Shown one piece after another: positions 2,559 through 13,630 of a stretch of DNA of 24,135 nt (its first letter is position 1; every line of letters starts with the position of its first letter). Under the pieces are notes generated by a model. The model did no database searches, was not told the origin of the DNA, and worked only from the letters and a program-made list of their open reading frames with translations. Source of the stretch: a virus; the IMG/VR virus record IMGVR_UViG_3300028193_000164, positions 1-24,135 of that record; one strand, 5' to 3'. Both the position numbers and the translations under genes were made by a program.

Positions 2559-2719
2559 TAATGACTTTCTCCTTTTTTGTTGGATTGTATCCAATCGTTA
2601 ACGGTTGTTTCAGGAGTTTCTTCTTTAGGCTCTAATTCGCTTAATAACTCATACTCCTCTTTTATTTTTTCTTTTTCTATTCTGTTTTCTATTTCGTCCA
2701 TGATCTTGTATGTATCCAT
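2558..2719 (-). CDS. Small acidic hypothetical protein
   Basis: This is a 53-residue ORF (MDTYKIMDEIENR... ending KKGESH). GGAGGGAAGAAA lies immediately before the ATG. The sequence is rich in E and K and probably helical, with no known motif. Its stop overlaps the aminotransferase start as TAATG, so it may couple translation of the sugar genes to the head gene operon. Function unknown. Confidence 0.6.
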   Translation of the reverse strand: MDTYKIMDEIENRIEKEKIKEEYELLSELEPKEETPETTVNDWIQSNKKGESH

Positions 2720-2730
2720 TTTCTTCCCTC

Positions 2731-2823
2731 CTATTCCGCCCAGTGACCCATAAGAGATTTTTTAATCAAAAGCCATATATCATCTAATATAGGTTTTAAC
2801 CACTTTTTAAGCATATTTAACAT
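2731..2823 (-). CDS. Tiny amphipathic peptide ORF
   Basis: A 30-residue ORF reads MLNMLKKWLKPILDDIW then a basic and hydrophobic tail. GAGGTGAAATAAA precedes the ATG, which lies 1 nt past the stop codon of the minor head gene. The composition (W, L, K) suggests an amphipathic or membrane-associated helix. It could be a real small phage peptide or a translational relay; nothing in the sequence assigns a role. Confidence 0.45.
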   Translation of the reverse strand: MLNMLKKWLKPILDDIWLLIKKSLMGHWAE

Positions 2824-2824
2824 T

Positions 2825-3889
2825 TTATTTCACCTCGATTACACTTTTCTTTAACTCAAACCCCTTTGTAAAATTATTACCAATCCAGTCTGGCATATTC
2901 TTATACCCTGCCAACTTTTCAGCATTATTTTTTAACCAATCTTCTGCTTTCTTTGGTATCTTATTTATATAATTAGATTTATCAATTTTACCGGTCTCCA
3001 TGTATTTTAGAGAATCTTTTTCGTTTAACATAATTGAAGTCGTGTAACAGATACAGCCCACATGCCAAATATCAAATATAAAGCCTTTGGGGTAAATTCC
3101 AGCTAGGTCATCGCACATATCCATTTGCGGATGATCAGCCGATAAATGCACCTCAATTCCTGTAATAAATGGTAACTGCTGTCTTCTCACATAGTCACTC
3201 ATTCTGTATGCCATGTTAATCTCATTTTTTGCCAGTCTCAAAGCATTTTTGTATGAACTTCTGTAGACACCGCTACCTGGGTGATAACCGCGAGCCGATT
3301 TACTCAAGACCAGTTTACCCTCGTGTCTTACCCTTCTAAATAACCTATTCGGTTCATTAAGATATTGCTTGATATCCCTTGCGATCCCCGCTGCACTTTT
3401 TCCGGTAGATATACCAGAAGCGAGGTAAAGTTCAATTTGGTCTTTTACCCCCGCTGCTATATTCCAGACTCTATCCGATATCTTTAATCCCGCTGTCGTC
3501 CGCGTAAGAAATGTATCTAACGCCTCCATATTTAACTGGTTAAACGAAGTCGGTATACCGTTTTTAGTTAGCTTAATCCCGTTAGCCCACTTGCCTATCA
3601 TTCTATTATTTTTTAGGTTGGCTAAATCCCAATTAGACACAACCCCATCTCCGATATAAGCCTCTATATCCTTGCTTAGCTTGCCTAATATGGTATCTAT
3701 CTGTTTTTCTAAGCCTTTATTGCGTATATAGAAAGAACCTTGAGAAACCGCAGTCGGGTTTTTCAGTTCAAAAATGCTAATTCGTTTAGCCAAATCTTTA
3801 GAAGCCTGGTTTAATACCGCCTCAATTTTCTTGTTGTATGCGATTATGGCTCTTATATGTTTTGATTCAAATTGTTCTTCTATGGTCAT
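2825..3889 (-). CDS. Minor head / head morphogenesis protein (Mu F / SPP1 gp7-like)
   Basis: This 354-residue protein resembles the portal-associated head morphogenesis proteins (Mu gpF / SPP1 gp7 group), which normally follow the portal gene. The N-terminal half is mainly helical. The C-terminal third holds KNEINMAYRMSDYVRR followed by an HLSADHPQMDMCDDLAG segment and WHVGCICYTTSI. That order of His and Cys residues is the metal-binding signature typical of this family (more often written HPxCRC). GAGGAGTATTAA precedes the ATG. In most relatives the gene abuts the portal. Here about 2.8 kb of non-structural genes separate the two, suggesting cargo insertion into the late operon. Family assignment is by pattern, not alignment. 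Confidence 0.82.
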   Translation of the reverse strand: MTIEEQFESKHIRAIIAYNKKIEAVLNQASKDLAKRISIFELKNPTAVSQGSFYIRNKGLEKQIDTILGKLSKDIEAYIGDGVVSNWDLANLKNNRMIGKWANGIKLTKNGIPTSFNQLNMEALDTFLTRTTAGLKISDRVWNIAAGVKDQIELYLASGISTGKSAAGIARDIKQYLNEPNRLFRRVRHEGKLVLSKSARGYHPGSGVYRSSYKNALRLAKNEINMAYRMSDYVRRQQLPFITGIEVHLSADHPQMDMCDDLAGIYPKGFIFDIWHVGCICYTTSIMLNEKDSLKYMETGKIDKSNYINKIPKKAEDWLKNNAEKLAGYKNMPDWIGNNFTKGFELKKSVIEVK

Positions 3890-3899
3890 TTAATACTCC

Positions 3900-4169
3900 T
3901 CAGCTTATACTTAAATCTTCAAAGGGATATTTCCTATAGTCTTTTATTTGATTGAAATAATTCTCAATTTCTTTTCTATAATAGAATATTTTAACATTTG
4001 AATTACCACGTTTTTCGAAATATTCCAATAGTTTCTTGGGTCTAATCCTTGTCCTGTGCATAGAAACTTTGTAACATTTTAATCCTTCTCTTATCCATTT
4101 ATAAACCGCCTGAATAGATACTCCCAAAACTTCCGCTGTTTCCTTAACTGTTAAATAATCATTACTCAT
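3900..4169 (-). CDS. MerR/excisionase-type helix-turn-helix protein
   Basis: This 89-residue DNA-binding protein starts MSNDYLTVKETAEVLGVS and continues QAVYKWIREGL, the pattern of the helix-turn-helix 17/excisionase family, in which a winged helix reads DNA. A second half with RTRIRPKKLLEYFEKRG matches the wing and basic tail. The start at 4169 is chosen because AAAGGAGATTTATT precedes it; a longer reading beginning 18 codons upstream would translate the repeat block and is rejected. A GGTNN repeat block with one hairpin lies between this gene and the RAMP-like gene, and the hairpin ends just before the ribosome site. It may regulate the module or bind its repeats, but that is inference. Confidence 0.8.
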   Translation of the reverse strand: MSNDYLTVKETAEVLGVSIQAVYKWIREGLKCYKVSMHRTRIRPKKLLEYFEKRGNSNVKIFYYRKEIENYFNQIKDYRKYPFEDLSIS

Positions 4170-4186
4170 AATAAATCTCCTTTCAC

Positions 4187-4256
4187 CTGCCCGAAGGCAG
4201 TTCCTTACCCCACCCCACCGCACCCCACTCTACCTAACCACGCCACACCAAACCAT
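4187..4256 (-). repeat. Short degenerate GGTNN pentamer block with one hairpin
   Basis: Read on the minus strand, positions 4256 to 4201 give about ten near-continuous 5-nt units of the form NNGGT, with a few mismatches (GTGGC, AGAGT). They end in GGAACTGCC, a TTCG loop and GGCAGGT. The hairpin stem CTGCC/GGCAG is at 4187-4200, closing a UUCG tetraloop in RNA. It lies in the spacer between the RAMP-like stop (4263) and the ribosome site of the HTH gene, so it would be in the HTH mRNA leader. It is a shorter copy of the array at 4834-5082. Confidence 0.85.
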
Positions 4257-4262
4257 ATTTAA

Positions 4263-4790
4263 TTATTTAAATTTTACTACTTCAAATCTACCAAAGTGAG
4301 GACGCCAATCGCCTATACCAATAAATTTTCCAGCATAAACAATTATCTCTTTTAATATATCTTTCTGCATTTGATCATCCATTACTAATAAAGTAAATTC
4401 CGCTTCCCAACCTTTTTTAAATGCAGGTCTACTTCTTAGAATCTGATTCCTTTGAATCTTAACAAATTCCTGATGATTATAATCAAATGTTTTCTTACCT
4501 AAAGGAATTTTATCAGGTTCAACTTCAACAGTAGCATTAATCATGTCTTTATAAGTTTTCCCCATTCTACCTTTGATCTTAAAATTTACTGCACCTTTAA
4601 CTAAAGAAGCTCTTAATTGTTTTGAAGGAATATAACAACCTATCTCATCATCAAAATACATTGAGTTTTCTGCTTCCTTAGAATAATCAGCTTCACCGGA
4701 TTTTTGTCTTGAATTATCTTCTTCAAAAGGTCTTTTATGTTGTAAATAATCAGCAATACCTTTGATCCTTACCTTAACCTCATAAGCCAT
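4263..4790 (-). CDS. Small RAMP / Cas7-like protein (tentative)
   Basis: This 175-residue protein has the outline of a single RAMP (ferredoxin-like RNA-binding) domain. It has an N-terminal strand MAYEVKVRIKGIADYLQHK, then YIPSKQLRASLVKGA resembling the I-P-x-S-x-L-R/K-G segment of Cas7/Csm3 proteins. The C-terminal IGIGDWRPHFGRFEVVKF is like the glycine-rich RAMP loop. No Cas6-type catalytic site or CRISPR array is seen. The start at 4790 is chosen because AAAGGAG lies 9 nt before it; an ATG 11 codons upstream would overlap the ribosome site. The gene is flanked on both sides by GGTNN repeat blocks, which makes the repeat RNA a natural binding candidate. The fold call rests on motif resemblance only; another phage family with a similar glycine-rich end is possible. 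Confidence 0.6.
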   Translation of the reverse strand: MAYEVKVRIKGIADYLQHKRPFEEDNSRQKSGEADYSKEAENSMYFDDEIGCYIPSKQLRASLVKGAVNFKIKGRMGKTYKDMINATVEVEPDKIPLGKKTFDYNHQEFVKIQRNQILRSRPAFKKGWEAEFTLLVMDDQMQKDILKEIIVYAGKFIGIGDWRPHFGRFEVVKFK

Positions 4791-4833
4791 TTTATTTTTC
4801 TCCTTTCTTATTATTTTTGGCAAGTCTCATGGC

Positions 4834-5082
4834 AACCGACCACACCAAACCACACCTGACCAAATTACCTCCCAAAAGGGAGTTCCAAACCAAACCGAAC
4901 CCCGGCACACCTTACCTTACCTTATCTAACCTGACCGAACCGCAAACCTGCCTGTGTGGCAGTTCCTCACCGAACCTCAGCTAACCACACCACACCAAAC
5001 CATAACTTGCTTGAAAGCAATCGCTTACCTGACCTTGTCTTACCTCAGCTTACCGCACCTGACCTAATCCAACCCCACCACA
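4834..5082 (-). repeat. Degenerate GGTNN pentamer array with interspersed hairpins
   Basis: The transcribed (minus) strand carries 30 GGT trinucleotides in about 250 nt, mostly spaced exactly 5 nt apart (for example GGTTTGGTGTGGTGTGGTTA). Intervening degenerate units such as GCTGA, GATAA and GACAA keep the phase. Three short hairpins interrupt it: TTGCT/AGCAA at 5007-5020, CTGCC/GGCAG at 4948-4962 and CTCCC/GGGAG at 4869-4882. The last two share the frame GGAACTSCC-loop-GGSAGGT with the hairpin at 4187-4200. The region is non-coding, begins 2 nt after the nuclease-like stop and ends about 30 nt before the RAMP-like ribosome site. It is not a CRISPR array, since there are no long identical repeats or spacers. 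On the plus strand it reads as C- and A-rich (ACCNN). Confidence 0.92.
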
Positions 5083-5084
5083 TT

Positions 5085-5459
5085 TTAACCATAGAAATAT
5101 TTCTTTAATAATTTTCTTGTAATTTTCTCATCCAAATAATTAATAACCGAATTTGCTATCCTTAAACAATTTACCCCGTTAATCTTACAAATTTTATCCT
5201 TCTTTGAATCTCTAACTTTTTGTTTTTTATCTTTGAAATGTGCCGCACCGCCGGGTTCAATAATAGCAACTAATTTACCATGCCTGAAAACTGCTATATC
5301 AGCGTGAGAGTTATTGCTCCAAAACTTTTTTAACCATTTATCTTCTGGCTCTGGAAACAATTCTTTTAATGGTATTTTTACTTTAAATTTTAATCTGGGG
5401 AAATTAGCATTGAGATGAGAATATAATTTCTCTATTACTGCTTCATCATTTTGTATCAT
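5085..5459 (-). CDS. Small PD-(D/E)XK-like protein (DUF559/DUF2726/Vsr-like)
   Basis: This 124-residue protein has the layout of a minimal restriction-endonuclease-like fold. It has HADIAVF (Asp about 54), a strand LVAIIEPGGAAHF with Glu and His in the positions seen in DUF559/DUF2726 proteins, RDSKKDKICKINGVNCLRI matching their conserved RD..K...C...G...LRI end, and a terminal helix. The usual E-x-K is replaced by E-P-G, so catalysis is uncertain. AAGGAGG lies 7 nt before the ATG, and a strong promoter sits 30-60 nt upstream. It is the first gene of the module that contains the pentamer array. It could be an active nickase or endonuclease, or a nucleic-acid-binding relative. Confidence 0.7.
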   Translation of the reverse strand: MIQNDEAVIEKLYSHLNANFPRLKFKVKIPLKELFPEPEDKWLKKFWSNNSHADIAVFRHGKLVAIIEPGGAAHFKDKKQKVRDSKKDKICKINGVNCLRIANSVINYLDEKITRKLLKKYFYG

Positions 5460-5490
5460 TTAACAACCTCCTTATAATAGCTATATTGGT

Positions 5491-5519
5491 AGTATAGTGT
5501 ATAAAAAGAAGATTGTCAA
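5491..5519 (-). promoter_or_regulatory. Sigma70-type promoter for the pentamer-array module
   Basis: On the minus strand TTGACA (5514-5519) is followed by a 17-nt spacer and TATACT (5491-5496), a near-consensus pair. A small dyad, CTATA-ctaccaa-TATAG, overlaps and follows the -10 and could be an operator. It lies in the 74-nt gap after the dehydrogenase gene and directly upstream of the nuclease-like gene, so the module can be expressed independently of the late operon. Confidence 0.8.
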
Positions 5520-5533
5520 ATTTATTGTTTACA

Positions 5534-6307
5534 CTAACTTAAAGTTCCCTTCTCTAATAAATTTACGTTTTCTTTATCAGCTTCTATTATTACTTTAGGT
5601 AATATTCCTTTCCCTTTTGCCGCCTTTATTAAAAATTTCAGGTCTTTTGGGAGACATTTACCGCCAGCCCCTCGATAATTATCAAATAGCGGGTCTAAAT
5701 GCATAGGGTTTATGTATTTATCCAGCTTGAAAGCCTTATGTAGTTGGTAATAGTCCGCACCGAAAGCCTTACATATATCATATAGCTCGTTTGCAAATAC
5801 GACCTTTACAGTGTATAAACTATTTAAGGCTACCTTAATCAATTCAGCTTCTACAGGTTTCATCATTAATATTTTTTTCTTATCAATTATAGGAGCGAAC
5901 AAAGTTTCAAATATCTTAAATGTTTCGGCTCTTTCAGTCCCTACTACAATTTTGTCAGGTTTAATTGAATCTTCCAAAGCTGACCGTTCTCTTAAAAATT
6001 CCGGTAAGAATACAAATTCCCTGTCGTATCCTTTAGCGAATTCCTCTGTCATACCGGGCAATATTGTAGACCGTATGCAGATAATCCCATCTTTATTCTT
6101 TTTATTTACATAACCTACTGCCTCTTTTATATCCTCGAATTTCATATCTGCTTTAGTTGGGACGCAAAGAAAAACTATTTCACAGTTAGCGATATTATCA
6201 GTTAAGCCTTTAGCAGGGTCATAGCGCTTGATGTTGTGGCCTAAATCTTCTAAGAGATTGCTTAGACTTTCTCCTATAACTCCGCAGCCTATAACACTTA
6301 ATTCCAT
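5534..6307 (-). CDS. Short UDP-glucose/GDP-mannose dehydrogenase family protein
   Basis: This is a 257-residue nucleotide-sugar 6-dehydrogenase. MELSVIGCGVIGESLS is the NAD-binding N-terminus. IVFLCVPT, RSTILPGMTEEF, EFLRERSALED and the catalytic loop GAGGKCLPKDLKFL (the Cys of GGxCxPKD) follow in family order. Typical UGD/WbpA enzymes are about 390-450 residues; this one stops shortly after the active-site loop and lacks the C-terminal nucleotide-binding domain. It would oxidise a UDP-hexose such as UDP-GlcNAc to the uronate. The start at 6307 is preferred because it coincides with the Rossmann fold start, although its ribosome site is weak; an ATG at 6346 is the alternative. With the aminotransferase and oxidoreductase at 259-2558 it could complete a WbpA-WbpB-WbpE-like route. 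Confidence 0.82.
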   Translation of the reverse strand: MELSVIGCGVIGESLSNLLEDLGHNIKRYDPAKGLTDNIANCEIVFLCVPTKADMKFEDIKEAVGYVNKKNKDGIICIRSTILPGMTEEFAKGYDREFVFLPEFLRERSALEDSIKPDKIVVGTERAETFKIFETLFAPIIDKKKILMMKPVEAELIKVALNSLYTVKVVFANELYDICKAFGADYYQLHKAFKLDKYINPMHLDPLFDNYRGAGGKCLPKDLKFLIKAAKGKGILPKVIIEADKENVNLLEKGTLS

Positions 6308-6311
6308 TTTT

Positions 6312-6644
6312 CTATATATTCTCTTCCCTTTTTTGCCAATCATCATAACTTTTTTGTGCTTCCTTTTCTGTTATTGGTCTTTCTCCAATAACAATTGCAA
6401 ATTCATCAGCCCCTGTATCTACCTGTTTTATCGTTGGAGATTTATATTTTTCTAAAGCACTTATTATCTCCTCAAAATCTGGCTGTTCTTTCCAATCCCA
6501 GAATATTATTTGTCTTCCGTTTATATTATCTTCCCCCTCTAACTTAGCATTATCTGGGTCAAACGCTGAACACGTAAGTGGAACCCCCATATTAATACTC
6601 CAATCTATACCCATGCCTATTTTTTTATCTTTCGTTTTTTTCAC
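6312..6644 (-). CDS. Hypothetical protein
   Basis: This encodes a 110-residue protein of unknown function. MGIDWSINMGVPLTC opens the protein and GADEFAIVIGERPITEKEAQK lies near the end. The tail is charged. I recognise no family. The GTG at 6644 overlaps a strong AGGAGG run, so the real start may differ; an internal ATG (MGIDWS) 10 codons in is also possible. It lies between the portal and sugar dehydrogenase genes, with 19 nt after the portal stop. Confidence 0.6.
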   Translation of the reverse strand: MKKTKDKKIGMGIDWSINMGVPLTCSAFDPDNAKLEGEDNINGRQIIFWDWKEQPDFEEIISALEKYKSPTIKQVDTGADEFAIVIGERPITEKEAQKSYDDWQKREENI

Positions 6645-6663
6645 CTCCTTCCCTTATCAATTT

Positions 6664-8046
6664 TTATACCTCGAATGATTCGCCAAGTTTGCTTACCTCA
6701 CCTTTCCCTTCTTCTTCTAATCGTTTTATATCCTCTTCTGGGTCTTCTACGAGAGGATTCTGTCTTATAGCCTCATCCCTGCTCATAATCGCCTCGCCAC
6801 CTCTTGCAGTCGATAACGCATTAATTGTTTCTGTCACATCTTGCGGCAAAACATTCCCGAACTTAACCGATATATCCAGCTGCTCTAACCTCTGTTTTTC
6901 TTTTACATCGGTTACACTTATTATTGCTTTTAATAGATTTATTCTTCTGACCAGAGCCTCTCCAAAGACTTCTTCTTTATTTTTCGCTTTTAGGATAGCA
7001 TCTAAAAACATAAATTTGAGGGTTTCACCGGAAGTCTGATTCATGCCTTTAACATTGTCAAAAGATAAATCAGGAGTAGAGGTCATAGAGAAGATAATAT
7101 CTTTTAGAGTGTTATATTCTAATTTTATTGCTTCTGGAGCCTGATCCCAGGTAAGATAGTCGGCGTCTCCGTACTCTGTTTTACCTTCAGCACCTACCAC
7201 ACCAGTGAATTGTAATAATTTCCCTACTTCTGCTTTATCTGGAGGATTGGTTATTTTCCCTTTTATCTTTAATGTAGGTGATCCAAAATAATCGTTGGTA
7301 TCGGCAAATTTACTGATCAGCATTTCACTTCTATCAATTTCAGTCTGTACATCCGTCCACTCCGGTTGAGACTGTTGATAATAGATGACCGGGATCTTAC
7401 CATACAAATTGGTACTCTTTTTAACGTCCCATTCTGTCTTTTTAACACCATAAATTATCTCTTTAGCAGTATATATATCGATATGTTCATATGTCTTTTC
7501 GTCTATATCTTCTAACTTGTACCGCCGGGTAAAGGCGTCTAAGTCTCCATTTTCATTGAAGTGGGAGAATACCTCATCTCCGTTTTCATTGCATAAGAGA
7601 GCTACCTTAATATGTTTTATATTGTCATCATCGATTATGACATACCATAACTCGGCTACCTTTGTTTCAACGAATAACCGACGTGCCAGTTTTCGATTAA
7701 AATAATCAAGTTTATTTTTATCCCAAACATTTTGAATAAATTTAAATGTCTTTTGTAGATTATCTTCTTTATTGGCTAAGATTAATTTCACGGCGTCACC
7801 AAACAAGAATGATACAGCCATGTTAACAATTTTCTTTTGATATTTGATGACTAATTTTGCCTGCTCTACCTTTTTTCTCGAAGATCCAGAGCCAATTGTT
7901 TTAACTTCCCGAAGCAGAATATCATGTTCGCCCTGGTATTCTTTTTCATAGGTTTCTATATCCCTTTCTACCGGGTCTTTACAAAGAACGGTTGTTAGCT
8001 TAGCAAAATCGTCTTTATACTTCTCTAAAATGTCTTTTATATTCAT
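6664..8046 (-). CDS. Phage portal protein (SPP1 gp6-like)
   Basis: This 460-residue protein fits the SPP1 gp6-type portal family, which forms the dodecameric DNA channel at one capsid vertex. Supporting features are the N-terminal helical region with KIVNMAVSFLFGDAVKLI, the central LYGKIPVIYYQQSQPEWTDV segment, SEMLISKFADTNDYF and SSTPDLSF-like STPDLSFDNVKGMNQTSGE leading into the long C-terminal crown helices, and an acidic tail. Length matches the family. It follows the large terminase by 26 nt, in the usual phage order. ATAGGAGATTACC precedes the ATG. The downstream neighbour is unusual: the head morphogenesis gene normally next to the portal is displaced by the sugar and pentamer-array genes. 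Confidence 0.88.
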   Translation of the reverse strand: MNIKDILEKYKDDFAKLTTVLCKDPVERDIETYEKEYQGEHDILLREVKTIGSGSSRKKVEQAKLVIKYQKKIVNMAVSFLFGDAVKLILANKEDNLQKTFKFIQNVWDKNKLDYFNRKLARRLFVETKVAELWYVIIDDDNIKHIKVALLCNENGDEVFSHFNENGDLDAFTRRYKLEDIDEKTYEHIDIYTAKEIIYGVKKTEWDVKKSTNLYGKIPVIYYQQSQPEWTDVQTEIDRSEMLISKFADTNDYFGSPTLKIKGKITNPPDKAEVGKLLQFTGVVGAEGKTEYGDADYLTWDQAPEAIKLEYNTLKDIIFSMTSTPDLSFDNVKGMNQTSGETLKFMFLDAILKAKNKEEVFGEALVRRINLLKAIISVTDVKEKQRLEQLDISVKFGNVLPQDVTETINALSTARGGEAIMSRDEAIRQNPLVEDPEEDIKRLEEEGKGEVSKLGESFEV

Positions 8047-8072
8047 GGTAATCTCCTATCACTTTTATATTT

Positions 8073-10346
8073 TTAGAATATCCCCAGACCACTTGCGGTA
8101 TATACTTCCTCTTTTTCTCTTTCAAAAATTCTGTCATTTAATGCGTAACGGACTTGGTCAAGAAAATGGTTATTTCTATCCACCGGTTCGTTAATTGTCT
8201 CCCCATCTTTATTTTTCTTCCATTGATACTGCTGGATTTCGTTTATGGCATTCTGACATCGTATGTCTATTACAATTTCAAATTGTTTTAAATACTGAAT
8301 ACCGAAATTGACACTTCCCGGTCCCTTTTTAGCTGCCAGTGCTTCTATCCCATAGCCTCTTAATTCTGCTATGGATTTAGGTTCGTTGTCACATCGGATA
8401 TATTCTTTGTTAATAATTGGTTTTAATCTATCTGCTATAAGATTATTGGTCAGGCCTAATTCATATATCATCTCTTCTAAAATGTATAAAGTCTTTCCTT
8501 TTATCGCCTGCCTGCCTGCTGCAGTGGGGTCATTGGAATTGCCTGTAAAATATACTGTACCATTACGTCTTGCAAGCCATGTTTTATTTTGTGTTGTTGG
8601 ACACCAAATTAAACCTTCATGAACAACCTTTTTCATATTTTTTCTTCTTCTTATTAATTCGCCAATATACAATTTATTATTTTTCTTAAATAAGGTTAAA
8701 CGCCAAGATAGATTATTATAGCTATAAAACGATTTACTTTTATAATATTTTAATGTCGTTCTAATGCCCAATAAACAACATGCCATTTGTAAAGGTTCTA
8801 ATCTTTCCCTTTCTGATTGTGTAATTACTCTTGTGCCATAATTTGTTGTGCTTCCATCAGCTTTTATGCTTACATTAATAAATAATTCTAACTGCTCCTT
8901 TGTCAAAAGAATGATAAATTCAGGAGAAATTATCTTTTTTGGAGCTACTTTTAACAATCTTTCTGCCCCATTCAAATTGATTGCCCAATGGCATAAACCA
9001 TCTTCCCTTTTATGTCTTTCCCTCCATCCAGCTTTTGCTCTATTCCTACCATTCCTTGTTTTAACAAGTTCTTCTCCAAATTCTTTACGAAGACATTTTC
9101 TAATTTCATCAGCATTTTCCCCTTCATTCTGCCATATTGAAATACCACCTTCTGTAATTTGTCCTTCTGTCCAGAACCATGCTACTAATTCTACAAACTT
9201 ATCAGTATATTCCTTTATTTTGGGTAAATTATCACATTCCCTCGCACATGCTATTGCGTCAGCCCCTCCTAATTCTTTAGTGGTTTGGAATCTTCTTTTA
9301 TATATCCTTGATTCTGGTCTTGGTTCTATCAGCCAACTATGATTTAATGTGGTTAAAGAACTATGGCTTTGGCCTTCGATCAATCCCATATTATATTTAC
9401 CATAAAAATAATTTACTTTTTGTATCTTTTGCCATTCCGACAATCCTGTTTCTTTGTTTATTGTTAAAGCTATATCATCTATATTTAATGTATTGTGTCT
9501 CTTCCATCCTCTCTTTGTTAATATTTCCGTTTCTTTGTCTACACAATAGCCAAAATCCAGCCCATTGTAATAAACTCCAAAGGTATTTTTAATCTTTGAA
9601 AGGTCTTCTATCTTCCAATTGGTAAAGATTAAATCTCCTAAAATCCCCCAATTGCCTAAAGTATAAACGTCCCTATAGTAGGGGTCTTTTTCATTCTCTA
9701 ATTCATCTATATCATCCTGCTCTAAAAACCTCAAGTTGTTTTTATAGGTTGTCTTTAAGATTAATAATCTTTCATCGTGATATTCGGTCTCGCCTTCTAC
9801 CCAGCCGCCGAAGTATTCTTTAAAGATCCAATGGCTTCGCATGATAGGGTTGAAAGATAATGTTATACGTTTAGGTACTTTAGATTTACCTCTCAACCTT
9901 TTATTTAATTGCTTCATATCATCCCTTTTGGTCTCAGTGGCCTCTTCTACCCAGATATCTGTAATAACGCCTTTTATAGGAATGATTCCTTTAAGCTTTT
10001 CTGTATCATCTAAACCTCTAAAATATATCTGATATCCAGTAACGCAAGTTATAGTCATCTCAGTTTGATTGATCTTAAATAATTTCTCCATATTCCAATT
10101 CAAGATGACTTTATTTATTTCATTGAATACGGAAGATCTCAATGTCTTGGCCGTATTCCTGATGATTAAATAATTCCTATCTTTTTCTAAAAGATCAATG
10201 ACACAGCGTTGAGCAAGCCAAACTGTTTTACCTGCTGAACTGCCACCATAATATATCTGCGTTCTGATATTATTATTAAGATACGGTATATAAATGGGAT
10301 TAAAGATTTCTTCTTTAATGTTTATACCAATTCTTTTAAAACTCAT
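8073..10346 (-). CDS. terL: Terminase large subunit with in-frame intein
   Basis: This 757-codon ORF encodes a precursor that should splice to a 421-residue terminase ATPase/nuclease, the motor that packages phage DNA. The ATPase part has GGSSAGKT (34-41, Walker A), VITDIWVEEA (127-136, Walker B and catalytic Glu) and LSFNP (163-167, coupling motif). The nuclease domain begins NGLDFGY (261-267) and, after the intein (268-603), resumes SNDPTAAGRQAI. A late catalytic-acid region with NNHFLDQVRYAL is at 726-736. Joined, the motif reads GLDFGYSNDPTA, a good RuvC-type motif I. The ATG overlaps the small-subunit stop. Order small terminase, large terminase, portal is classical. Length after splicing matches TerL proteins. 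Confidence 0.95.
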   Translation of the reverse strand: MSFKRIGINIKEEIFNPIYIPYLNNNIRTQIYYGGSSAGKTVWLAQRCVIDLLEKDRNYLIIRNTAKTLRSSVFNEINKVILNWNMEKLFKINQTEMTITCVTGYQIYFRGLDDTEKLKGIIPIKGVITDIWVEEATETKRDDMKQLNKRLRGKSKVPKRITLSFNPIMRSHWIFKEYFGGWVEGETEYHDERLLILKTTYKNNLRFLEQDDIDELENEKDPYYRDVYTLGNWGILGDLIFTNWKIEDLSKIKNTFGVYYNGLDFGYCVDKETEILTKRGWKRHNTLNIDDIALTINKETGLSEWQKIQKVNYFYGKYNMGLIEGQSHSSLTTLNHSWLIEPRPESRIYKRRFQTTKELGGADAIACARECDNLPKIKEYTDKFVELVAWFWTEGQITEGGISIWQNEGENADEIRKCLRKEFGEELVKTRNGRNRAKAGWRERHKREDGLCHWAINLNGAERLLKVAPKKIISPEFIILLTKEQLELFINVSIKADGSTTNYGTRVITQSERERLEPLQMACCLLGIRTTLKYYKSKSFYSYNNLSWRLTLFKKNNKLYIGELIRRRKNMKKVVHEGLIWCPTTQNKTWLARRNGTVYFTGNSNDPTAAGRQAIKGKTLYILEEMIYELGLTNNLIADRLKPIINKEYIRCDNEPKSIAELRGYGIEALAAKKGPGSVNFGIQYLKQFEIVIDIRCQNAINEIQQYQWKKNKDGETINEPVDRNNHFLDQVRYALNDRIFEREKEEVYTASGLGIF
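8538..9545 (-). mobile_element. Intein with LAGLIDADG endonuclease domain inside terL
   Basis: The 336-residue intein starts at Cys268 of the precursor (CVDKETEILTKRGWK, block A). Block B is SSLTTLNHSW with TxxH at 333-336. Two LAGLIDADG-like helices, LVAWFWTEG (about 387-395) and FINVSIKADGS (489-499), each end in an acidic residue. Block F/G is WLARRNGTVYFTGN, ending at Asn603, with Ser604 as the +1 extein nucleophile. The usual penultimate His is Gly. All splicing residues needed by a class 1 intein appear present, so it is probably active, and the endonuclease may home into intein-free terL genes. The insertion point splits the nuclease metal-binding motif, a highly conserved site. Confidence 0.93.
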
Positions 10347-10738
10347 TTAATTAATTTCACCGTAATTTCTAAATCATCATCAGGAGACTCACCCATTAAT
10401 AATAAATCTAATTTAGCCATTACGTTTAAATCCTCTGGTCGTTCAATTCTTATCTTTCCATCTTTTAATTTTTGTTCAAATTTTTTAACGACTTTTTTTA
10501 TTAAGGCTCGGTAGTCAGCTTTTGAATTTACTATTGCTTTATCAACTTTTTTCTCCAGTTCTTTTCCATTATTAATATCTCTTAGTTCAATTCGTTCTTG
10601 CCAGTTAAAATTCTTGGCCCATTTCTTGATTGAAGTCTTTGAGACGGTAAACTTAAGGGCAACCTTTGGGTAACTTCTGTTATCCCCTAAACTATAATAA
10701 TATTCAAATGCTTCTTTATGTCTAAGTGTTTCCTTCAC
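10343..10738 (-). CDS. terS: Terminase small subunit
   Basis: This 131-residue protein is probably the DNA-recognition subunit of the terminase. The N-terminus has a helix-turn-helix (YPKVALKFTVSKTSIKKWAKNFNWQERI, of the SPP1 gp1/P27 type), then a long coiled, basic region (KKVVKKFEQKLKDGK) suited to oligomerisation, and a C-terminal tail that could contact TerL. Start is a GTG at 10738 with GGTGGTGATTATCA ahead of it. The stop overlaps the terL ATG by 4 nt. Identification rests on the HTH plus position directly before terL. Confidence 0.85.
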   Translation of the reverse strand: MKETLRHKEAFEYYYSLGDNRSYPKVALKFTVSKTSIKKWAKNFNWQERIELRDINNGKELEKKVDKAIVNSKADYRALIKKVVKKFEQKLKDGKIRIERPEDLNVMAKLDLLLMGESPDDDLEITVKLIK

Positions 10739-10904
10739 TGATAATCACCACCTTAACTAATTCATCAGGCTTGTGTATCCTATTCAACTTATCTAAAATA
10801 TCATCAGTAGGTTGAAACTGTAGTATTATTCGTGTTTCCTTATCCAGTGATACTAACGATTTTGTCTTTAACTCTTTTATTAACGCTTCAAACTTTACTT
10901 TCAT
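10722..10904 (-). CDS. Small hypothetical protein
   Basis: This is a 60-residue protein (MKVKFEALIKELKTKS start) of unknown function, with two likely helices and strands and no motif that I recognise. GGAAGGATAAAGT precedes the ATG. It overlaps the terS start by 17 nt, so it appears to be the first gene of the packaging operon downstream of the terminator at 11020-11073. Confidence 0.6.
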   Translation of the reverse strand: MKVKFEALIKELKTKSLVSLDKETRIILQFQPTDDILDKLNRIHKPDELVKVVIISEGNT

Positions 10905-10907
10905 ACT

Positions 10908-11006
10908 TTATCCTTCCAAAATCATTTTGCCTAAAAGATGTTTGACGCCATGTTTTTTTCTTACTCCCCATGATCTCAAGTTATTACTTATACATCCTAC
11001 AGACAC
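10908..11006 (-). CDS. Possible 32-residue HTH remnant or mini-protein
   Basis: From the GTG at 11006 the reading is VSVGCISNNLRSWGVRKKHG and about a dozen more residues. It resembles the recognition-helix end of the HTH protein at 11838-12209 (GVSRSIIYLRLRKWGITVRK). The frame stays open upstream (FRKDGVS...) across the terminator, so this may be the tail of a decayed gene, or a small late-gene regulator. The start choice is weak. Confidence 0.35.
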   Translation of the reverse strand: MSVGCISNNLRSWGVRKKHGVKHLLGKMILEG

Positions 11007-11019
11007 CCCGTCCTTCCTA

Positions 11020-11073
11020 AAATAAAAAAAGAGAACCACTTAAAAGTATATTTCAACTTTTTAAATGGCTCTC
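11020..11073 (-). terminator. Rho-independent terminator
   Basis: The minus strand has a long stem, GAGAGCCATTTAAAAAGT pairing with ACTTTTAAGTGGTTCTC (two G-U pairs and one bulge), followed by TTTTTTTATTTT. It starts 10 nt after the stop of the zinc-ribbon gene and separates the replication/early genes from the packaging genes. No clear sigma70 promoter is visible between it and the packaging genes, so late expression may need an activator or antitermination. Confidence 0.87.
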
Positions 11074-11082
11074 TTTGGAGCT

Positions 11083-11331
11083 CTACGGATATTTAATTTT
11101 TACTATTACTTCTTCCTTGATCCTACAGGTGACGGTAATATAATTTTTGCATTTTGGGCATTTAATTGTTTGTGTTTTCGGTTTACCGAATATATCAAAA
11201 CCCGGGCTTCCGATAAAAAACATATGATTGCATGGTCTTTTATTACCATGTTTATCTGTAAATATCCCTGGACAACGAATTTCTATCTCATCTGTATTAT
11301 TAATAATACCACCACCACCTTTTTTAGTCAA
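11083..11331 (-). CDS. Com-like zinc-ribbon protein
   Basis: This 82-residue protein has a zinc-ribbon layout: EIRCPGIFTDKHGNKRPC, then NHMFFIG and TIKCPKCKNYITV. The first knuckle is stretched (C-x13-C); the second is a standard CxxC. The IRC...IKCPKCK order resembles the Mu Com family of small regulators, but the similarity is weak. The start is uncertain: the TTG at 11331 lacks a clear ribosome site, and a GGTGGTGGTGGT run lies just inside. It is the last gene before the terminator. Confidence 0.55.
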   Translation of the reverse strand: MTKKGGGGIINNTDEIEIRCPGIFTDKHGNKRPCNHMFFIGSPGFDIFGKPKTQTIKCPKCKNYITVTCRIKEEVIVKIKYP

Positions 11332-11372
11332 ATTATCTTATTAAATCTTTTAGTCTAAAATCAGTTAACATA

Positions 11373-11708
11373 TTATCCTAATATCTTAATTAGATCATCC
11401 AGATTATCAATCAAATAATATTCCCCTTTTTGATTAGTGATGTTCCATTCAAATTCTATTTGACCAGGGCTTTGTTTTCCTTTAGGCCTTTTAATTTCCA
11501 GATATATTGTCCGCCCATTCTTAATGGCTATTCTGTCGGGAATACCGTTAAAAGATCCTAATCCTTGCAAAATTGGAAAATTATACCAACCTTTAATGCT
11601 TAAATAATCCTTAACCTGTCGCTTAACGTCATTTTCGGTTATCTTAATCTTATTCTTCACTTTCTGGATAATTGTGGCTCGCCTCCTTCGATTTATTATT
11701 ATCTTCAT
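11373..11708 (-). CDS. VRR-NUC domain nuclease
   Basis: This 111-residue protein is a stand-alone VRR-NUC (virus-type replication-repair nuclease), a PD-(D/E)XK phosphodiesterase. TENDVKRQVKDYLSIKGW is the N-terminal helix. GSFNGIPDRIAIKNG carries the GxPD aspartate, YLEIKRPKGKQSPGQ carries E-x-K and the downstream Gln, and a C-terminal YYLIDNLDDL closes the fold. Phages use these beside replication and recombination genes, possibly as Holliday-junction or flap nucleases. The ATG at 11708 has AAAGGTGAAAG before it, but an AAGGAGG at 11682-11688 sits 9 nt before an in-frame ATT (11672), which could be the real start. The first third overlaps the small ORF at 11650-11799. Confidence 0.85.
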   Translation of the reverse strand: MKIIINRRRRATIIQKVKNKIKITENDVKRQVKDYLSIKGWYNFPILQGLGSFNGIPDRIAIKNGRTIYLEIKRPKGKQSPGQIEFEWNITNQKGEYYLIDNLDDLIKILG

Positions 11709-11799
11709 CTTTCACCTTTCTTATAATTGGTCCATAACTATTGGCATATCTTTGTAATTTCACATAATCATTATTTAATTTGGCTTGAATATCTACCAC
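11650..11799 (-). CDS. Small hypothetical protein overlapping the VRR-NUC start
   Basis: This is a 49-residue reading from a GTG at 11799: VVDIQAKLNNDYVKLQRYAN, then SYGPIIRK and a charged tail ending PESEE. The composition looks protein-like and the frame continues through the nuclease ribosome site. The ribosome site is weak (GAGGA about 15 nt upstream) and an internal GTG (DYVKL) is a possible alternative. If real, it means the VRR-NUC gene starts later than its ATG at 11708. No function can be assigned. Confidence 0.45.
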   Translation of the reverse strand: MVDIQAKLNNDYVKLQRYANSYGPIIRKVKDEDNNKSKEASHNYPESEE

Positions 11800-11837
11800 C
11801 CCGCATTGTTACTGTCCTCAATTTACTTACCCCCTTT

Positions 11838-12209
11838 TTAGCCGATTATTGGTCGGCTCAATAAATTATCTACTAACTTTTGATCTTCTGTGCTACGTTT
11901 AAATTTAATGTATGTAATATGCTCATTATTTATTCTGGTATTCTCTTTTTGCTTCGCTAAAAATGCTTTACTAAACTGCCGCTTGTAATGCTCCCGACTT
12001 ACCAGTCTTTCCTCTTTTCTACGCCTTGTCCCTTTATATTTCCGAACAGTTATGCCCCATTTGCGTAGCCGCAGATATATGATAGACCTTGACACGCCGT
12101 ATAACTCGGCTATTGTTTTTATCGGCGTATTCTGCTCATACTTTTCTATTATGTTTTCACGATTAGATTCTATATATTCAGCTATTAGAAATTTGTTTTT
12201 AGTTATCAT
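11838..12209 (-). CDS. Helix-turn-helix protein (homeodomain-like)
   Basis: This 123-residue basic protein has a central HTH, TPIKTIAELYGVSRSIIYLRLRKWGI at about 28-53, followed by KYKGTRRRKEERL. It is probably a DNA-binding regulator or recombinase-associated factor. GAAGGAG precedes the ATG, and the gene overlaps the upstream loader-like gene by 11 nt. It shares its recognition-helix pattern with the fragment at 10908-11006. The exact role is unknown. Confidence 0.7.
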   Translation of the reverse strand: MITKNKFLIAEYIESNRENIIEKYEQNTPIKTIAELYGVSRSIIYLRLRKWGITVRKYKGTRRRKEERLVSREHYKRQFSKAFLAKQKENTRINNEHITYIKFKRSTEDQKLVDNLLSRPIIG

Positions 12210-12816
12210 TTACTTTTTCTCCTTCTGCCGCTTCCGGCATATTAAATTTATCTTTTAATTCTTTCTTGTCTTCTATCTGTTTCCTATCTACTTTCGTGCC
12301 GTCTAGTTTCATCCCATACTTATCCAACATATATTTTTCGGTATATTTATTCCCATTATCTAATTCAAATTGACCTATTAATTTATCGGGATATTCACCC
12401 CTTTTTTTTATAATGGGATATAATTTTATAAATTCCTTTTTAATCCATTTCTCCTCATCAAAAGTCGTTTCGCATATACTTAACCAACCACCAAGTGCTT
12501 CAATTACCGCCCCAATTGCCGGATATTTTGGGAAAGATACGGATTGGTAATGTCCTACAGTTTCTATTTTGTCCAACAAAGATATCCAGGCAAGTTCGGC
12601 TTCATCTGTAGAATTGCCTTCAATGGCTTCTATAATCTCGGATATTTTAGGGAAATATTTAAGTTCTTTAACACATTTAATAGTAGCTTTTTTAATAATA
12701 TTATCATCATATTTATTAAGTATATCCCAATAAATTTTACTCGTGTCTTTACTTAACTTAACTGAAAATCCTGCCTCTAATAATTCTATTACATTAGAAA
12801 AGGTTTTTTTATTCAA
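12199..12816 (-). CDS. Replicative helicase loader-like protein (tentative)
   Basis: This is a 205-residue protein. The N-terminal helices SNVIELLEAGFSVKLSKDTS and YFPKISEIIEAIEG, with KYPAIGAVIEALGGWLSICE and EEKWIKKEFIKLYP, resemble phage loader and inhibitor-of-helicase families (DUF6475/G40P-inhibitor-like). These normally follow the initiator gene, as here. The start is a TTG at 12816, supported by AGGAGG 9 nt upstream; it overlaps the initiator stop by 8 nt. The C-terminal tail is charged and likely flexible. The assignment relies on context and weak pattern resemblance. Confidence 0.55.
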   Translation of the reverse strand: MNKKTFSNVIELLEAGFSVKLSKDTSKIYWDILNKYDDNIIKKATIKCVKELKYFPKISEIIEAIEGNSTDEAELAWISLLDKIETVGHYQSVSFPKYPAIGAVIEALGGWLSICETTFDEEKWIKKEFIKLYPIIKKRGEYPDKLIGQFELDNGNKYTEKYMLDKYGMKLDGTKVDRKQIEDKKELKDKFNMPEAAEGEKVNDN

Positions 12817-13630
12817 TTATATTTTCCTCCTCATTAATAAAATCGAAACGGTTGGGATCGTGGGTTGTGTTGGTTATAACTTTTTTATAAAATCTCGGAT
12901 AATGCTTTCTTAATTTTTTAGCAGATAAAATATTGCCTGACCAAAAATTATCTTCTACTACCCAATCTATTATCTGTTTTATTTCTTTAGGATTTGCACC
13001 ATCTTTTCTAATTAATAAATCTATATCTTTACACCAGGATTGTATCTGTGGTTCTGTTCTTTTGTTAATCGCTTTATTATTTTCTCTAATCTTCCCTTCT
13101 AAATAAATTGTAAGTTGATATACCGCCTCGCACTTTTCAAAAGTGCGACTTAGTTTCCTTTCTTTTTCCTTCTTATCCTTCTTATCCTTATTAGTTATTG
13201 TTAAGGCTTTGTTAAGGCTTTGTTGAGGCTTTGTTAAGGCTTTGTTATTTGGTTTGTTAATGTAATTATCCACAGCTTGATAAAGGTCATATTTTAATAT
13301 GGTTATAAGAGTATAGTGGCTTGTTGTTTCGCTTGTTAGAAATTGCATGTTTTTTAAAATCTCTATACAGGTTCTAATTTTTTGTGTTTTAATTGATTTG
13401 TCCTTAATCTCTTTTCTAATCTGCTCTATCGAGGTTATAAAACTCCCCCTTTTAATGGTAATAAATTTCTTTTGGTAGCTATCCCACCACTCATTATCCT
13501 TCCAATTAGCTTTTAATATTAGGTATATTGTTATATATTTTTGTATAGCATTTAAACCATTAAAGGTTTTGCTTTTAAATATTTTTCTTGATAATAGGAC
13601 AAAACCATCTTCTATAAATTCGTCTGCCAT
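12809..13630 (-). CDS. Phage replication initiator / replisome organizer (DnaD/O-like)
   Basis: This 273-residue protein looks like a replication initiator. An N-terminal winged-helix region (FVLLSRKIFKSKTFNGLNAI, then ITIKRGSFITSIEQIRKEI and KIRTCIEILKNMQFLT) matches replisome organizers that bind iterons. A low-complexity linker NKALTKPQQSLNKALT follows. The C-terminal part (IQSWCKDIDLLIRKDGANPKEI... FWSGNILSAKKLRKHYPRF) is typical of DnaD-like phage proteins that recruit the helicase. The linker is encoded by four 11-bp direct repeats, so the gene probably contains its own origin, as in lambdoid phages. AAGGAGGTATAA precedes the ATG. The next gene is a likely helicase loader. Confidence 0.78.
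   Translation of the reverse strand: MADEFIEDGFVLLSRKIFKSKTFNGLNAIQKYITIYLILKANWKDNEWWDSYQKKFITIKRGSFITSIEQIRKEIKDKSIKTQKIRTCIEILKNMQFLTSETTSHYTLITILKYDLYQAVDNYINKPNNKALTKPQQSLNKALTITNKDKKDKKEKERKLSRTFEKCEAVYQLTIYLEGKIRENNKAINKRTEPQIQSWCKDIDLLIRKDGANPKEIKQIIDWVVEDNFWSGNILSAKKLRKHYPRFYKKVITNTTHDPNRFDFINEEENIIE
13129..13246. other. Candidate replication origin: iterons plus palindrome in the initiator gene
   Basis: Four tandem 11-bp repeats AAGGCTTTGTT lie at 13203-13246; the third starts G instead of A. A perfect 9-bp palindrome with one central base, CGCACTTTTCAAAAGTGCG, is at 13129-13147. The DNA between them is pyrimidine-rich with its own short direct repeats (CTTATCCTT). Repeat period, clustering and position inside an initiator gene match known phage origins. 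The 11-bp unit is not a multiple of 3, so protein constraints do not explain it. Confidence 0.65.

Follow-up and report, generated by a model that had tools for sequence, protein, structure and literature searches.

Which kind of system is encoded by a non-coding tract of GGT triplets that recur every five nucleotides beside the gene of a RAMP-like protein? The question is raised by the 24,135-nt stretch of a viral genome analyzed here (positions 1–24,135 of IMG/VR record IMGVR_UViG_3300028193_000164; hereafter designated the window), in which the segment 4834–5082 contains 31 ACC triplets on the plus strand, that is, GGT on the minus strand. A first-pass annotation made from the letters alone had described this segment as a degenerate GGTNN array with built-in hairpins, distinct in layout from CRISPR, TIGR, and microsatellites, whose GGT core and 5-nt period are kept by selection while the other bases are free to vary, serving an oligomerizing nucleic-acid-binding protein or a guide-like RNA of no described family. 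The periodicity is borne out by the numbers: ACC pairs at lag 5 amount to 18 on the plus strand, against 0.99 ± 1.0 in dinucleotide shuffles (maximum, 7 among 2000), and sequence identity at lag 5 is 0.52, against 0.29 ± 0.03 for shuffled sequence. The segment is indeed intergenic and adjoins the 5' side of the RAMP-like gene on the same strand.

Parsed in phase, the array consists of three blocks of 11, 7 (or 8, if GTTAT directly upstream is included in the second), and 11 pentamers and a subsequent 5-unit tract, which is followed by a ribosome site and the start of the RAMP-like protein P0001. Every block is composed of 7–11 pentamers and one fixed 3' hairpin, and the three 5-bp hairpins between the blocks (CGATTGCTTTCAAGCAAG, CTGCCACACAGGCAG, and CTCCCTTTTGGGAG) are present as annotated. 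Three features had been overlooked, namely this layout of fixed hairpin-ended units, the mini-array in the gene leader, and a fourth block (4186–4254), likewise hairpin-ended, on the 3' side of the RAMP-like gene (Table 1). No matches were obtained in an Rfam scan of the window.

Table 1. Features of the locus, in window coordinates.
Feature	Position	Strand	Description
sigma-70-like promoter	5491..5519	-	TTGACA-17-TATACT, consensus match only
candidate vap	5085..5459	-	124-aa DUF2726/DUF559-like protein
vrRNA 1 variable tract	5025..5079	-	11 units, NN = GG TG TA CA GC AA GA AA AA CA AA
vrRNA 1 3' tail hairpin	5006..5024	-	GCGA-UUGCU-UUCA-AGCAA
vrRNA 2 variable tract	4967..5001	-	7 units, NN = TT GT GT TA GA TC GA
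vrRNA 2 3' tail hairpin	4947..4966	-	GGAA-CUGCC-ACACA-GGCAG
vrRNA 3 variable tract	4887..4941	-	11 units, NN = TC CA TA AA AA AA GT GG TC TT TT
vrRNA 3 3' tail hairpin	4868..4886	-	GGAA-CUCCC-UUUU-GGGAG
short GGTNN tract, vipr leader	4837..4861	-	5 units, CA GT TT GT CG; without tail hairpin
vipr	4263..4790	-	175-aa RAMP-like protein P0001, SUSP1 Vipr homologue; phrog_4652
vrRNA 4 variable tract	4205..4254	-	10 units, NN = TT GT GT TA AG GG GC GG GG AA
vrRNA 4 3' tail hairpin	4186..4204	-	GGAA-CUGCC-UUCG-GGCAG

The sole PDB sequence match of P0001 is SUSP1 Vipr (36pp; phmmer E = 3e-15), which is also matched by the P0001 family profile (E = 1.7e-39), and identity with the Felix-group homologues is ~29%. 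A Cas7-like fold is predicted by the AlphaFold model (pLDDT, 90.8), whose top 50 Foldseek matches are CRISPR effector RAMP chains, mostly of Cas7 type (E ~1e-6), and which is grouped with Csm3, Cmr4, and type VII Cas7; in the loop GxGDWRPxFGRF, G154, G158, R163, and G167 are invariant. VIPR (Viral Interference Programmable Repeat), described in a preprint of April 2026 (PMC13142463), combines Vipr, a small single-domain RAMP of ~20 kD that has an RRM core and a G-rich loop, with vrRNAs consisting of 9–16 YNNGG repeats (GGY/NN) and a structured 3' tail, in which the NN letters specify a double-stranded DNA target, one base being skipped per unit, and binding silences genes; reprogramming experiments have been reported, and the natural targets found so far are mostly satellites and prophages (PMC13142463). 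Because P0001 is homologous to the characterized protein and is accompanied by the array, the locus is, on sequence grounds, a VIPR locus, of a lineage residing in a clade of uncultivated phages. Thus, the first-pass annotation was right about the design, including the RAMP-type partner, the guide-like RNA, and the distinction from CRISPR, TIGR, and microsatellites, but wrong in supposing that no family had been described, as VIPR has exactly such a design together with a homologous protein. The window tracts lie on the vipr strand and contain 11, 7–8, 11, and 10 units, guide 2 being shorter than the published 9–16.

Like the SUSP1/Felix O1 VIPR (PMC13142463; PDB 36PP), the locus has a homologous RAMP whose gene is bordered on both sides by GGY/NN vrRNAs of its own strand, a structured 3' tail, and a phage genome as its carrier. 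It differs in that the tail, as parsed here, simply consists of GSRA and a 5-bp hairpin, its neighbor is PD-(D/E)XK-like instead of a predicted DNA-binding Vap, and its guides appear to point to sister phages instead of a satellite. With the Cas7/Csm3/Cmr4 RAMPs of Class 1 CRISPR it shares the predicted fold and, presumably, a guide RNA sheathed in a protein lattice, its pairing interrupted at regular intervals, but it has a 5-nt period, a 3-nt scaffold, and a single small protein without repeats and spacers. The window contains no CRISPR-type direct repeats with spacers, and no cas genes were recognized among its listed ORFs and the proteins scanned. TIGR-Tas and CRISPR also provide phages and mobile elements with guide RNA arrays; in those, contiguous spacers lie between longer repeats, whereas scaffold triplets and dinucleotides alternate here. 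TRAP sites, composed of ~11 triplets with 2-nt spacers, have the same 5-nt period, but TRAP requires (G/U)AG. A TRAP-binding leader was ruled out, as the core is GGY and the partner is a RAMP; CsrA-type and Rho-type binding sites, considered along with TRAP from the motif, were dropped in view of the link to a RAMP.

The tail, GSRA plus a 5-bp hairpin, stands 3' of all four window guides and recurs in identical design in 17 further tails from relatives. Compensatory double changes were found at 5/5 stem pairs across the tails of the window and relatives, with 98.9% of the cells paired, and the covariation score was 0.468, compared with 0.214 ± 0.029 for shuffled tails (0/500 shuffles reaching the real value). 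Slid registers were only 35–62% paired, which shows that the pairing register of the tail matters.

The same architecture is kept in related viruses. P0001 is encoded at 89–91% identity in five viral contigs; hairpin-ended blocks occur upstream of vipr in all five of these close relatives and just downstream as well in four, with NN letters and block lengths that differ among them. When units from six related viruses are taken together with those of the window, G, G, and Y are kept at 90%, 91%, and 99%, respectively, consistent with the proposed selection on the core, and the two N positions have entropies of 1.89 and 1.93 bits out of a possible 2. More widely, viral contigs were scanned with (GGTNN)x5 and x8 patterns and the loci filtered for long, high-diversity arrays, which yielded at least 78 viral loci with long degenerate arrays. 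Among the matches listed, a P0001-family ORF was present at 62/78 array-bearing loci, compared with 7/139 array-less viral loci (Fisher p = 6e-31); the 16 array loci without the family include several that are short or have the array at a contig end. The arrays lie on the vipr strand, mostly <80 nt away, with a second group ~500 nt away, and their block separator or tail is fixed per virus group (GGCA, GGCTAATG, GGCAGTT, a 20–25-nt AT-rich linker, or a hairpin). GGTNN arrays are thus widespread in viruses of environmental origin, with a very uniform layout.

Simple GGTNN microsatellites occur in cellular genomes, and it might be argued that slippage in low-complexity sequence produced the arrays, or that they are replication or recombination sites, unlinked in either case to the RAMP gene. 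With the same pattern, however, none of the 119 cellular loci listed had a P0001-family ORF, and all of them failed the degenerate-array filter except for two short candidates (L178 and L232). The high NN diversity, the covarying fixed hairpin after every block, the linkage to vipr at 62 of the 78 loci listed, and the retention of the same layout at two syntenic positions among relatives leave this explanation with a negligible probability.

Among the viruses bearing both elements is the cultured phage wV8 (EU877232, L368) of the Felix O1 group, in which gene 95 is a P0001 homologue with GGTNN arrays on both sides, at about 3700–3880 and 5097–5283 of L368, parts of which are annotated merely as DR_4 direct repeats; wV8 offers a laboratory-tractable VIPR. 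In phiHSIC, a vipr homologue is present and the array is absent from the stretch read. In L312, L320, L328, L333, L343, L094, and L358, the array lies ~486–522 nt downstream of vipr, a gap that fits one gene of constant size, and GGCA separators occur in L312, L333, and L094; this group probably represents a further VIPR type that has a vap of its own. Long degenerate arrays with no vipr detected in the fetched stretch were seen in L066, L078, L122, L129, L289, L314, L342, and L349 and could be orphan vrRNA arrays or belong to a vipr that has diverged or lies farther away. The 112-kb phage L318 (IMGVR_UViG_3300012971_000018) carries seven arrays with ~350 GGT pentamers in 10 kb (2574–12922) and two consecutive P0001-family ORFs (6351–6690 and 6721–7345). 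An Rfam scan of 13 array loci gave only a tRNA and a DUF3800-VII RNA (51 bits; L288, 2353–2431, on a contig that also carries a VIPR array), with no hammerhead.

Do the NN letters carry information, or is the tract a protein-binding scaffold or decoy only, either TRAP-like or a RAMP sponge, with neutral NN and without targeting? The latter would account for a strongly kept GGY beside near-random NN and for the absence of an identified target for most guides. However, L139 and L141, which share 92% identity in vipr (81% at fourfold sites), have guides that agree at only 21–50% of NN when aligned from the tail, and the NN letters therefore turn over faster than neutral sites. Moreover, it is only with a 1-nt skip that guide 1 and three further guides match genes of sister phages in frame, as detailed below, and VIPR has been reprogrammed experimentally (PMC13142463). 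We consider a pure scaffold or decoy very improbable. Thus, the free variation proposed in the first-pass annotation holds as far as ~1.9 of 2 bits at NN are concerned, but beyond being free to vary, these letters probably carry the targeting information.

The best evidence for targeting by these VIPR guides came from guide 1. Written out as 20 letters (10 units, skip 1), it is matched exactly at a single place in the IMG/VR viral_contigs searched. That place is in the close relative G001 (L364/L377), within the gene of the 124-aa family that adjoins vipr there on the upstream side. The site, GGCTGGTATCACGCTAAAGATAAAAAGCAA, reads GGC TGG TAT CAC GCT AAA GAT AAA AAG CAA AGA (GWYHAKDKKQR) and agrees with the guide at 21/22 letters over 11 units, in codon phase 0, the skips falling on the wobble bases. 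The orthologous site differs from the guide at 3 letters in G002, and the window's own allele (GGTGCGGCACATTTCAAAGATAAAAAACAA) differs at 6. A comparable 16-letter skip pattern gave six apparently chance matches in the viral_contigs, which puts the expectation for 20 letters at ~0.02, an extrapolation between patterns of different composition. The nuclease-like gene of G001 is the probable natural target of guide 1.

The other guides gave modest matches, and their targets are suggestive. With skip 1, guide 4 best matches the NDP-sugar dehydrogenase gene of G004 (18/20; own ortholog, 16/20), the downstream guide of L140 matches the minor head protein gene of G004 (20/22; own ortholog, 17/22), and the 8-unit guide of L138 matches the 124-aa-family gene in G002, G005, and G006 (15/16), all in the sense orientation and in codon phase 0. 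The window orthologues of these three target genes surround the VIPR locus (5534–6346, 2825–3889, and 5085–5459, respectively). When convergence was defined as best matches at orthologous sites in three or more genome pairs, 4/25 guides converged on orthologous sister-genome sites with skip 1 and none with skip 0 or 2; shuffled guides gave a mean of 0.4 and a maximum of 3, with 0/300 sets reaching four. Simpler controls, based on score, are less clear: a preference for codon phase 0 is also seen in shuffled guides, owing to their composition, and in the within-clade score control the best real score was equaled by one shuffle replicate. In a general search, the parsing of 113 loci having given 355 guide tracts (a set only partly curated), 325 guides were compared with 3 Mb of fetched loci at skips 0–2, and the 322 longer guides with about 2.5 Mb, in neither case with a general excess over shuffles, guide 1 alone standing out. 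Guides 3 and 4 had no exact target in the viral_contigs. A reading of guide 4 as directed to the terminase Walker A was discarded, since its 8-unit core matched six contigs and the flanking units failed in all; the NDP-sugar dehydrogenase match is better than these candidates.

These matches could instead be coincidences at conserved codons within a genuine VIPR whose real targets are satellites or prophages outside the databases. Such a reading agrees with the published targets, mostly satellites and prophages, with the only moderate excess of within-clade matches over the shuffle control, and with the two mismatches that guide 4 has even in its best sister. It explains less well why guide 1 is unique at 20/20 in the viral_contigs, with its match in a VIPR-linked gene of a sister phage, and why four guides converge on orthologous sites when 0/300 shuffles reach four; we regard it as rather unlikely. 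The guide matches themselves suggest VIPR warfare between sister phages. In its full form, in which the VIPR of this clade would be a sibling-exclusion weapon of a virus-borne lineage with a degenerate PD-(D/E)XK accessory, the guides matching codon positions 1–2 of genes common to sisters (the nuclease-like VIPR partner, NDP-sugar dehydrogenase, and minor head protein) while the phage's own alleles have diverged, the proposal is tentative, falling a little short of an even chance.

The neighboring gene is found upstream of vipr in 6/6 relatives examined and is the best vap candidate in the locus. Its 124-aa product matches DUF2726 below the curated cut-off, and its model (pLDDT, 89.6) has weak best fold matches to the PD-(D/E)XK nucleases BstEII, TnsA, I-Bth0305I, and VRR_NUC. 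D54 and E68 are invariant and the usual lysine is replaced (EPGG); from this replacement, the protein may bind rather than cut. Among the VIPR types, predicted nucleases have been reported for III and V only, both of them enriched in host defense islands (PMC13142463), so that a phage-borne nuclease-like partner is worth checking. The downstream HTH gene (3900–4169) was dropped as a vap candidate, being absent from every other locus fetched.

Collectively, the locus is explained best, and with high confidence, by a VIPR system whose Vipr-coated vrRNAs would read DNA with a 1-nt skip and repress it, with sister-phage genes as probable targets. The anatomy, homology, hairpin covariation, and guide–target matches were established directly in this analysis; vrRNA transcription, assembly, DNA binding, and repression in this phage are inferred from the published system (PMC13142463). 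Presumably, transcription on the minus strand would turn the arrays into vrRNAs in which a GGY/NN tract is joined to a structured 3' tail; Vipr would coat the pentamer tract, with GGY facing the protein as a scaffold, while the NN letters would pair with double-stranded DNA, one base being skipped per unit, so that target binding leads to transcriptional repression. The guides of the clade would be aimed at genes common to sister phages, such as the nuclease-like gene of a competitor's VIPR locus, the phage's own copy having diverged from its own guide. As the kind of system is already known, the main addition made here is the probable sister-phage target, that is, a guide–target pair linking two related phages, with the target inside the VIPR locus of the rival. 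The locus also adds an independent VIPR lineage from an uncultivated phage and a clean series of orthologous tails that covary strongly, and it makes testable a possible role of VIPR in sister-phage competition and the avoidance of self-targeting.

Two further elements may bear on expression of the locus. The sigma-70-like promoter, judged from its consensus match, could drive the whole locus. The leader mini-array, whose sequence is kept at the same place in 4/5 close relatives (L138–L141), unlike the guides, showed no self-match beyond chance under the skip code; its function may be autoregulation through Vipr binding, or it may act as a short guide with a dedicated role. Elsewhere in the window, an 11-bp tandem repeat (13198–13247; 4.5 copies, 94% matches) lies within ORF 12809–13630, and the large terminase (8073–10346, minus strand) contains an apparent intein that begins with CVDKETEILTKRGW and ends with VYFTGN before S.
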